Source: Metasolibacillus sp. (GTDB lineage Bacteria > Bacillota > Bacilli > Bacillales_A > Planococcaceae). From it: a stretch of DNA of 54,216 nucleotides. Under the pieces are notes generated by a model that ran no database searches, had not been told where the DNA came from, and saw nothing but the letters and a program-made list of their open reading frames with translations. Made by a program: the position numbers and the translations under genes. Of this stretch, positions 13,262 to 44,030 are shown in pieces. The stretch covers positions 1 through 54,216 of the forward strand of contig NZ_JAMBIZ010000025.1 of assembly GCF_025291715.1 (NCBI RefSeq), written 5' to 3'. How positions within the stretch are numbered: position 1 is the first letter of the stretch; each line of letters begins with the position of its first letter.

Positions 13262-13392
13262 AAATGACAAAAAGCCAGAGAGAATGATTGCATTCTCCCA
13301 GGCTTTTATCCTTCCGTGTAACACACATATGCTGTGTGCGCCTTCTCTCGGACCAGACTAGCAAAAGCATCTGCTACGGAACCCTAGAAAGC
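13262..13392 (-). promoter_or_regulatory. Guanidine-I (ykkC) riboswitch with terminator
   Basis: On the minus strand, CTAGGGTTCCG is followed by GGTCCGAGAGAAGG, ACACGGAAGGATAAAAGCC and TGGGAGA, the hallmark conserved blocks of the ykkC aptamer. The 3' block also forms one arm of an intrinsic terminator (13291-13305 with 13272-13286, then a T run to 13262). Guanidine binding should sequester that arm and allow read-through, an ON switch for the SMR pair. Confidence 0.93.
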
Positions 13393-13402
13393 TTGATAAT
13401 TT

Positions 13403-32017: not shown

Positions 32018-32050
32018 TAAAAAAACCACTCAATTAAGAGTGGTTTTCTT
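32018..32050 (-). terminator. Terminator of the first csp gene
   Basis: A 10-bp stem (32022-32031 with 32038-32047) is followed on the minus strand by a long T run. Confidence 0.85.
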
Positions 32051-32056
32051 CGTAAA

Positions 32057-32257
32057 TTATAGTTTTACGATGTTAGCAGCTTGAGGTCCGCGTTGGCCTT
32101 CTTCTACTGTGAATTCAACTTTTTGGCCTTCTTCAAGTGATTTGAAACCTTCACCTTGGATAGCTGAGAAGTGAGCGAATACGTCTTGACCGCCTTCTAC
32201 TTCGATGAATCCGAAACCTTTTTCTGCGTTAAACCATTTTACTGTACCTTGTGTCAT
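32057..32257 (-). CDS. csp: Cold-shock protein (66 aa)
   Basis: A single CSD fold with RNP1 KGFGFIEV and RNP2 DVFAHFSAI binds single-stranded nucleic acid and acts as an RNA chaperone. ATG 32257 follows GGAGGTCATT; the longer frame is not needed. The gene has a long leader of about 140 bases that contains a terminator-type hairpin. A near-identical paralogue lies at 38509 with the same leader design. Confidence 0.96.
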
Positions 32258-32306
32258 TTGAATGACCTCCATTAATTGTATTAAATAAAATCTTATTACT
32301 CGAATC

Positions 32307-32372
32307 GAAAAAAAATCACATATTACAAAAAGTATCTATCAAAACACGATTACTCTTTGTAATATGTGATTT
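32307..32372 (-). promoter_or_regulatory. Leader terminator hairpin of csp 1
   Basis: On the minus strand a 22-bp stem (32351-32372 with 32313-32334, one G-U pair) is followed by eight T. It lies between promoter and start codon and should stop transcription unless overridden. The arm TCACATATTACAAAGAGT is shared with the second csp leader. Confidence 0.82.
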
Positions 32373-38445: not shown

Positions 38446-38482
38446 TAAAAAAGCACTTCCCATTACAGGAAGTGCTTTTGAT
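38446..38482 (-). terminator. Terminator of the second csp gene
   Basis: A 12-bp stem (38449-38460 with 38468-38479) is followed by T on the minus strand. Confidence 0.85.
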
Positions 38483-38508
38483 TAACGATTTACATTTAAT
38501 TCTAAGAA

Positions 38509-38709
38509 TTAAAGTTTAGTTACGTTAGCAGCTTGTGGTCCGCGGTTGCCATCTACAACTTCGAATTCCACTTTTTGACCTTCGTCAAGAGTTTTGAAAC
38601 CTTCGCCTTGGATTGCAGAGAAGTGTACGAATACGTCGTTTTCGCCTTCTACCTCGATGAATCCGAAGCCTTTTTCTGAGTTAAACCATTTTACTGTACC
38701 TTGTTTCAT
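38509..38709 (-). CDS. csp: Cold-shock protein (66 aa), paralogue
   Basis: The CSD has RNP1 KGFGFIEV and RNP2 DVFVHFSAI and closely matches the product of 32057-32257. ATG 38709 follows GGAGGTTTTCTC. It has its own strong promoter, a leader of about 150 bases with a terminator-type hairpin, and its own terminator. Confidence 0.96.
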
Positions 38710-38760
38710 TTGAGAAAACCTCCAAAAAATAAAGTGAACAATATGGAATTGTTTACCGAA

Positions 38761-38825
38761 ATAAAAATTCACATATTACAAAGAGTACCGTCATTTACAC
38801 CGATCACTCTTTGTAATATGTGAAT
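38761..38825 (-). promoter_or_regulatory. Leader terminator hairpin of csp 2
   Basis: On the minus strand a perfect 20-bp stem (38806-38825 with 38767-38786), 19-base loop, is followed by TTTTTAT. The arm TCACATATTACAAAGAGT is the same as in the first csp leader while the loops differ, which points to selection on the stem sequence. Confidence 0.82.
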
Positions 38826-43443: not shown

Positions 43444-44030
43444 TCAAGCATGTATGCCAGTAGAGTTCATTAATACAACCCTCCAACCATCAGGGTCTTC
43501 AAATGTGATACCTAATGCATGCCAATACGGATTTTCTGGCACAACAGACTGATAGCCCATGATATGCAATCTATTGGTTATTTCCTGTATTGTCTCAAGG
43601 CTAGGAATATAGAATACTAGTAAATTATCTTTAGTTGGAGCTGGGCATGGACTACCATTGATATGTTGAGTAAACTCTAAATGGTAATCAAATTCAGGTA
43701 AGCCAATCATCACCCCATCATATCCTGCATGTCCTTCAAAAGAGCCGATTTTTCTTAACCCTAGCCCTTCACAATCAATTACGCCTTGGCGTAATTGCGT
43801 CGGGATTTTGCATTGTGCAAGCACAATGGACTCCTTTCAAAATCCCTGACATCCGCCGGAGGCTTTATTAGGATTCAGTGCGTGTTTGGTCACCCACTGA
43901 ATGTAGAGTAATCTATATATTCATCGCACCACCTATAGAGGGGGGCGTTTTCTACTGAATCATGATAAAAGCGCACTACTTCGTTAAGCTGGTTTGTAGG
44001 ACGCGCTATTCTTACTTGAGCTATTTGCAT
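43444..44030 (-). pseudogene. VOC-family (glyoxalase-like) gene split by a 185-bp insertion
   Basis: The 5' part (44030-43959) encodes 24 residues including RPTNQLNEVVRFYHD, behind AAAGGGGA. The 3' part (43773-43444) continues with CEGLGLRKIGSFEGHAGY to GITFEDPDGWRVVLMN. Deleting 43777-43961 joins them in frame as FYHDCEGLGL, giving a 133-residue VOC protein of normal length. The present 3' frame could be translated from GTG 43824 behind AAAGGAG, but that product would have element-encoded residues (CKIPTQLRQGVID) in place of the first beta strand and is probably non-functional. Confidence 0.85.
43773..43961. mobile_element. Structured AATC-bordered element, copy 1 (inside the VOC gene)
   Basis: The element is 43777-43957 (181 nt), between AATC at 43773-43776 and 43958-43961. 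It contains hairpin 1 (43776-43785 with 43788-43797, perfect), hairpin 2 (43802-43810 with 43838-43846) enclosing a further perfect hairpin (43811-43818 with 43821-43828), the core TGACATCCGCCGGAG (43847-43861) and hairpin 3 (43873-43880 with 43895-43902). No protein is encoded. Borders and order match the copy at 3571-3714. Confidence 0.82.

Follow-up and report, generated by a model that had tools for sequence, protein, structure and literature searches.

A gene-free, hairpin-rich insertion element with an IS605-type left end interrupts a VOC gene in Metasolibacillus and recurs in Planococcaceae genomes

The VOC gene (YycE-like; PF22658, PF22659) on the minus strand at 43444-44030 of a 54,216-nt stretch of Metasolibacillus sp. 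DNA (contig NZ_JAMBIZ010000025.1; the whole stretch is called the window below) is split by non-coding, hairpin-rich DNA. Judged by comparison with uninterrupted relatives, this DNA is a copy of a real, widespread and gene-free element that has cut the first 22 codons off the gene and that has probably been moving recently. It is likely a non-autonomous, PATE-like element derived from an IS605-type transposon, which moves as single-stranded DNA. According to the proposed mechanism, a TnpA supplied in trans would cut the folded strand at TTAT/ and TTGAT/ (a slash marks a cleavage site or joint) and would join the flanks after cutting the element out, whereas the excised element would form a circle and re-insert where guide and target pair. 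The features are listed in Table 1.

Table 1 Features of the element and of the interrupted gene (positions in the window)
Feature	Position	Strand	Basis
VOC gene, 3' part, 109 codons and stop	43444-43773	-	PF22658, PF22659
Whole element	43774-43964	-	Active reading 5'-CATGATTCAG...AATTGAT-3'; uninterrupted orthologues in two genomes of the genus
Terminal palindrome CAATTACGCCTTGGCGTAATTG, right-end hairpin, 2 nt from 3' joint	43776-43797	.	Pairing in 42 copies
Long hairpin GTC(GGGATTTT...AAAATCCC)GAC, apical hairpin at 43811-43828	43799-43850	.	Covariation, 42 copies
Conserved core ACATCCGCCGGAGGC	43849-43863	.	Nearly invariant in 42 copies
Internal arm: target repeat (43864-43868, TTTAT on plus strand) and spacer pairing	43864-43879	-	Tetramer statistics
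Alternative inner hairpin ATTCAGTGCGTG...CACCCACTGAAT, shares internal arm	43873-43902	.	Sequence and fold
Left-end IS605-type hairpin, CCCACCTCTATAGGTGG-like, imperfect in the window	43929-43945	-	Matches left ends beside tnpA/tnpB
IS605-type guide motif AGAAAA (consensus AGAAG[A/T]), 5' of left hairpin	43948-43953	-	Guide-target complement
First 11 nt of element: target-guide spacer and 5' stem arm with internal arm; holds right-hand AATC	43954-43964	-	
Host target TTTAT (ATAAA on plus strand), retained 5' of element	43965-43969	-	Empty sites L180, L179
VOC gene, 5' part, 22 codons	43965-44030	-	Homologues

A first-pass annotation of the window, made from the sequence alone, had recognised a non-coding, hairpin-rich insert in this gene, and the uninterrupted relatives bear this out for the minus strand. 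The search for empty VOC sites which it proposed covered four other genomes of the genus: the gene is uninterrupted in two of these, a third, of the same species (G018), has the same insert, and the fourth gave no match. The two uninterrupted genes read TTTCTAT/TGTGAAGGG (L179) and TTTTAT/TGTGAGGG (L180), and the minus strand of the window has TTTTAT/CATGATTCAG...AATTGAT/TGTGAAGGG at the same joints. The borders annotated at 43777-43957 (181 bases) have to be corrected to the 191 bp given in Table 1, with a 2-nt ambiguity, as AT stands at both joints and 43776-43966 is equally possible. Of the two gene parts that had been proposed, the one of 109 codons stands, whereas that of 24 codons is reduced to 22 by the empty-site comparison. 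The 133-codon gene with the reading FYHDCEGLGL, expected upon removal of the element, gives way to RFY/CEGLGL and 22 + 109 codons at the empty site; the residues HD are element sequence. The two AATC tetramers taken as a flanking pair are no target duplication, since the right-hand one (43958-43961) lies within ACTGAATCATG, a stem of the element whose 11 positions pair in 9 cases with the internal arm (43869-43879); AATC duplication was rejected on this ground. A GTG within the element opens a frame of 126 residues (43444-43824, minus strand) that runs into the VOC remainder, and a shortened VOC protein could still be made from it.

Filled and empty states were found between two strains at four sites (L185/L212, L193/L325, L202/L327 and L005/L210), and at all four the sequence before the joint already ended in TAT. 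Another species of the genus is empty at L193 (G036), as are G036 and G065 at L202, where G052 has other sequence; insertion is thus likelier than excision at these two sites. The strains differ beside the joint by one base at L193, by two T at L202 and by two bases at L005, where the flank is CTAT in the empty strain and TTAT in the filled one. Four gene sites fit the same insertion rule as these strain-level sites, namely the VOC gene, a NUDIX gene and two stop-codon sites. The NUDIX gene, confirmed by Pfam for the interrupted gene, carries a copy at CTAA/TTGAAG, and three uninterrupted relatives have exactly the coding length that is expected if the insert is C...TTGAT. At the stop-codon sites, two copies with TTAA in the arm stand directly 3' of a stop codon TAA, and all uninterrupted relatives compared (2 of 2 and 3 of 3) have the same stop codon; the gene names sdhC-like and atpA-like come from tails of 49 residues, for which Pfam returned no family. 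Where targets end in AA, AT is found at the palindrome end in 37 of 39 copies, which together with the NUDIX and stop-codon sites implies that there is no duplication and that the element is C...TTGAT. These site comparisons establish insertion 3' of TTAT- or TTAA-like tetramers, without target duplication and with TTGAT as element end. Head-to-tail joints of the type TTGAT/CATGATTC, in which the element is followed by a truncated second left end, occur at L003 and L008 of the own genome; at L008 this is a tandem arrangement, and the other strain has the truncated left end only. Empty-site comparisons at L040, L102, L164, L176, L184, L189, L198 and L011 gave no clear answer, L206, L024, L029 and L030 are shared sites or lie near them, and a search of G018 for places orthologous to L007, L025 and L027 found none.

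The element is present in many copies, with 44 matches in the own genome and 43 in the same-species genome G018. The BLASTN-type check in Planococcaceae genomes that had been suggested gave matches in 72 of 151 genomes and 11 of 19 genera, at most a few candidates per genome being scored; uniqueness in the genome, named as an argument against mobility, is contradicted by the 44 matches. Copy number, distribution, empty sites and strain-level presence or absence all support the annotated non-autonomous mobile element. A motif scan of named genomes yielded at least 117 stretches, and among the 80 listed ones Sporosarcina, Lysinibacillus, Solibacillus, Psychrobacillus, Metasolibacillus, Bacillus ndiopicus and one record named Arthrobacter are represented. 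The latter, Arthrobacter beigongshangensis REN13, holds many copies (L067, L080, L081, L087, L089, L090, L113, L133, L134); its name is actinobacterial, and the record is possibly a mislabelled Planococcaceae assembly. In G032, 250 element candidates were obtained at first look, and in G138 (C2, 3.93-4.03 Mb) seven copies, all in one orientation, are clustered in about 100 kb. Plasmid and phage collections gave no element match. Six motifs of 16-20 nt were found in none of the openly available papers searched, and text searches of these gave no description of this repeat among the matches listed. Rfam has no family above gathering score at the site (best weak match, E 4.3); elsewhere in the window it matched a guanidine-I riboswitch and two cspA thermoregulators (13293-13398; 32018-32334; 38447-38787) and, at the window edge, a group II intron (4-74).

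Against 200 dinucleotide shuffles, the region 43773-43961 has the most stable fold, both as DNA (plus strand, z -6.3) and as RNA (z -3.8 and -4.6), in agreement with the hairpin-rich nature noticed at first pass. The terminal palindrome noticed there is present and conserved as well (99.5% of cells paired in 42 copies). In an alignment of 42 of the 47 full-length copies (five with inner units were left out by eye), four helices are paired in 98.9% of 1,291 cells, the structure having been predicted from the same alignment that was used to score it and the left-end stem, out of register there, being absent. Covariation amounts to 82 cells changed on both sides, compared to 21.0 in shuffles and 0-14 in slid controls, and wobble pairs occupy 11 of the 1,291 cells; on this predicted structure, the pattern makes perfect hairpins in single-stranded DNA more probable than RNA. 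The spacer stem has at least 13 of 17 complementary positions in 110 of 130 copies, with the partner picked by best match. The length has a median of about 190 bp and ranges from about 110 to 315 bp (133 copies). There are no terminal inverted repeats, the ends being CATGATTCAG and AATTGAT, and hairpins lie near both. The apical loop of the long hairpin is the seat of other small units in other copies: one with a GGTCA..CGTTG core is found in the long hairpin of 22 of 133 copies (16 forward and 7 reverse occurrences), and at two loci this unit, of about 70 bp and with GTTAACC/GGTTAAC arms, occurs in only one strain inside the same copy (L015/L004 versus L182; L016/L012 versus L186). Further nested units carry CTAGCTCCGGGCGCC... 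(L060, L082), AATCGAACAGCGAAGGG... (L074, L151, L165), and CTTCGCTTTCAG or CTTCACTTTCAG (L092, L096).

At the left end of the element, the active strand has, in this order, the target TTTA[T/A], a spacer of about 11 nt, AGAAG[A/T]C, a hairpin and GATGAATG. When 42 left ends were used as queries against 70 partly overlapping Y1/TnpB loci, which comprise part of the IS605 elements of the family, IS605-type left ends were matched at 10 distinct places (E < 0.01), and shuffled queries matched none. The best match (86% over 58 nt, E 2e-12) lies upstream of tnpA in G025 and G006. Five of the ten places are upstream of tnpA, four upstream of tnpB, and one (L216/L439) is at the far end of a tnpA-tnpB element. 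The genomes with a place directly upstream of tnpA (G006, G025, G027, G059) all lack an element match in the 151-genome survey, as does G009, where the far end of a tnpA element is matched; the places in element-bearing genomes (G065, G073, G139) adjoin tnpB. Five long plus-strand queries (E <= 0.01) gave only short matches in L216 and one module match in L225, and the notion that no IS605-type relative exists was overturned by re-inspection of L216 and by the search with 42 left ends. The aligned left ends establish homology with those of IS605-type transposons, which makes derivation from such a transposon likelier and makes a RAYT, a MITE or an otherwise unknown enzyme less likely. Among 48 copies in which an AGAA[GA]N motif can be read, 39 have a guide base complementary to the final base of the target (guide A opposite target T in 20, guide T opposite target A in 19; the other nine misfit), with a Fisher p of 4e-8 for the 43 A/T cases. 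The motif is absent from the searched stretch in 85 of 133 copies, many of which are short copies without hairpin. Two full relatives follow the same guide rule, L446 with TTTAA and AGAAGT and L456 with TTTAT and AGAAGA. For the right-end AATTACGCC palindrome no IS605-type counterpart was detected in the 70 loci, the sole match (L456) being a separate copy of the element itself. In G073, the tnpB element L456 with the same left-end type lies about 1 kb from a gene-free copy.

Orientation with respect to replication was examined in three genomes. The leading strand is G-rich, and according to GC skew, taken from 20 stretches per genome, the origin of G018 lies near 1.05 Mb; in G032 and G138 it lies near coordinate 1. 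The active strand is on the lagging-strand template in 32 of 39, 28 of 40 and 35 of 41 copies of these genomes (Fisher p 7e-5, 0.012 and 3e-6; pooled 95 of 120, p 8e-11). For these counts, at most 40 candidates per genome were scored, several matches to a single copy were combined manually (43 to 39, 43 to 40 and 47 to 41), and clustered neighbours are not independent. Among copies flanked by divergent, convergent or head-on frames, 30 of 42 keep this orientation (p 0.008), gene direction being judged from open frames of at least 90 codons. IS605 elements of Halanaerobium show no strand preference (10 of 22; PMC7290912), which argues against generality of the fork bias.

Domain searches for Y1 (PF01797) and TnpB (PF07282) proteins covered the own genome and 151 genomes of the family. 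The own genome encodes one Y1 protein, beside the leucyl-tRNA synthetase gene leuS (confirmed by Pfam), for which the best NCBIfam model is REP-associated, with a score below cut-off; the searches of this genome gave no match to an IS605-type TnpA, to the TnpB domain or to Y2 proteins (PF04986, found in 6 of 151 genomes, none the own). Presence of the element is not linked to that of Y1 (50 of 72 genomes with versus 47 of 79 without element, p 0.24) or of TnpB (29 of 72 versus 26 of 79). There are 22 element-bearing genomes without a Y1 match, including G032, and 16 with neither Y1 nor TnpB. Among the loci examined, there was no copy with a palindrome-core distance above 330 nt and no gene inside the element, and at the places examined, every tnpA with a matching left end belonged to a genome that lacks an element match. 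The transposing enzyme may since have disappeared, may be gained and lost from time to time, or may be a different one. The PATEs of Haloquadratum walsbyi also show strain-specific insertions even though intact TnpA is nearly absent (PMC3119063).

Other modes of mobility or function can be envisaged. A MITE that is moved as double-stranded DNA by a DDE transposase and duplicates two target bases (AT) would explain the AT on both sides at TTAT sites, where duplication and its absence are indistinguishable, but AT is kept at the other end in those 37 of 39 copies with AA-ending targets, on which AT duplication was rejected, and the NUDIX and stop-codon sites fit only without duplication. With an IS605-type left end and a fork bias besides, and with neither the terminal inverted repeats nor the target duplication of a DDE-transposon MITE, this explanation is very unlikely. 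It is also very unlikely that the element acts as RNA, either as an omega-RNA-type guide or as an intron that restores the VOC message. The conserved structure and a left end shared with tnpB elements could be explained in this way, but the omega-RNA is located at the right end of tnpB elements, and it is there that the element differs from them. Furthermore, wobble pairs are few, and the omega-RNA-type unit suggested at first pass finds no TnpB match in the own genome, no association with TnpB in the 151 genomes and no Rfam family over threshold; likewise, for the self-splicing role considered there we found no evidence, no group I or II intron of Rfam scoring above its gathering score at the site. 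Unlikely, too, is a REP-type element that depends for its movement on the REP-associated Y1 protein encoded beside leuS. This is the sole Y1 protein found in the own genome, and CGTC, reported as a tag of REPs (PMC3733652), stands after the palindrome, but no Y1 match occurs in 22 of 72 element-bearing genomes, no element ends were found around the Y1 gene, and the left end is of IS605 type.

Another question is how the internal arm came to resemble the target. The arm, which was located without use of target positions, pairs with the spacer and continues with a tetramer identical to the target in 89 of 133 copies, whereas 5,000 shuffles gave 34.3 on average and 48 at most. The 133 copies were chosen for a recognisable core and for an arm in which 9 or more of 11 positions match, and 12 of them are from G018 and partly repeat own-genome sites. 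With one row per arm/flank sequence, the agreement is 85 of 128. By copying target and spacer into a stem, the arm may present the cleavage site or add specificity. Alternatively, the match could arise once the element is in place, if replication corrects the near-palindrome, with the IS605-type guide alone responsible for targeting; we give this somewhat less than an even chance. The change from CTAT (empty) to TTAT (filled) at L005 indicates that part of the agreement may indeed arise after insertion, and the T tract that is two bases shorter at L202 and the wobble in 11 of 1,291 cells of the other stems point the same way. On the other hand, pre-existing flanks already ended in TAT (VOC, L185, L193, L202, L005) or, at the two stop-codon sites, in TAA, in line with the arm, and of the 32 copies whose tetramer is neither TTAT nor TTAA, 14 match in full, e.g. 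CTAT, TCAT, TTCT and TGTA. The more far-reaching proposal, that these are gene-free IS605 derivatives with two coupled, co-varying guides that were naturally re-targeted many times (TTAT, TTAA, TCAT, TCAA, TTCT, TGTA, etc.), with a right end of their own and a trans-acting enzyme that is absent from many hosts, is tentative and, taken as a whole, rather doubtful.

Derivation from an IS605-type transposon can be compared with the rules for IS608 and PATEs (PMC5934647, PMC6006769, PMC3119063). The element resembles PATEs in being too short for a transposase, in its near-terminal palindromes without terminal inverted repeats, in the lack of target duplication and in the IS605-related left palindrome, but not in its right palindrome, which has no IS605-type relation in the 70 loci that represent part of the family's IS605 elements. 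It shares with IS200/IS605 elements a guide 5' of the left hairpin that is complementary to the target and the lagging-strand template orientation, but encodes no Y1 TnpA. The assignment to the IS200/IS605 or PATE kind, already suggested at first pass, therefore stands for left end, guide-target link, absence of duplication and fork bias; it fails for the right end, without IS605 match, and for the transposase, none of this kind being found in the own genome. Three traits are unusual: the presence of a second arm, a right end that is separate, and the range of targets found in nature.

Should this assignment hold, roughly half of the family genomes sampled contain an insertion element that lacks a transposase and is targeted by a guide. 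Its natural variants would then record re-targeting such as has been achieved in IS608 by engineering (PMC5934647). The copies would then form a large natural data set for single-strand transposition and raise the question which enzyme moves the element. In Lysinibacillus-, Solibacillus- and Sporosarcina-like genomes, they would also account for many intergenic regions rich in hairpins and for some disrupted genes.

By description only, the element can be likened to BOX elements of pneumococcus and bcr1 of Bacillus cereus, which are small, structured, interspersed repeats of Firmicutes. The closest known systems are IS605-type transposons of the same family (L446/L242 in G025 and L449 in G006, with tnpA and tnpB; L456 in G073, with tnpB only), which share the target TTTAA or TTTAT, the spacer, AGAAG[A/T]C, a CTATA-type or extended-loop hairpin and GATGAATG, but which carry genes and, in L446 and L456, have GTAGTTCA-like right ends instead of the AATTACGCC palindrome and TTGAT. 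With REP/RAYT systems (PMC3733652, PMC8266576), it shares a perfect palindrome beside CGTC and many chromosomal copies, and it differs by its size of about 190 bp, two fixed joints and no observed dependence on a Y1 gene. The PATEs of Haloquadratum walsbyi (PMC3119063) are likewise gene-free, with near-terminal palindromes and neither terminal inverted repeats nor duplication, show strain-specific insertions and have other small mobile repeats nested inside; in comparison, the present element belongs to a bacterial family, possesses an extra arm repeating target and spacer, and has a right end without known IS605 relative. Compared to IS608 (PMC5934647), there are no tnpA and tnpB, several natural targets are used within one family and an extra arm is present, whereas insertion 3' of a tetramer that is kept in the left flank, the use of the lagging-strand template, and a guide 5' of the hairpin that pairs with the target, in the same position and with the same logic, are common to both.
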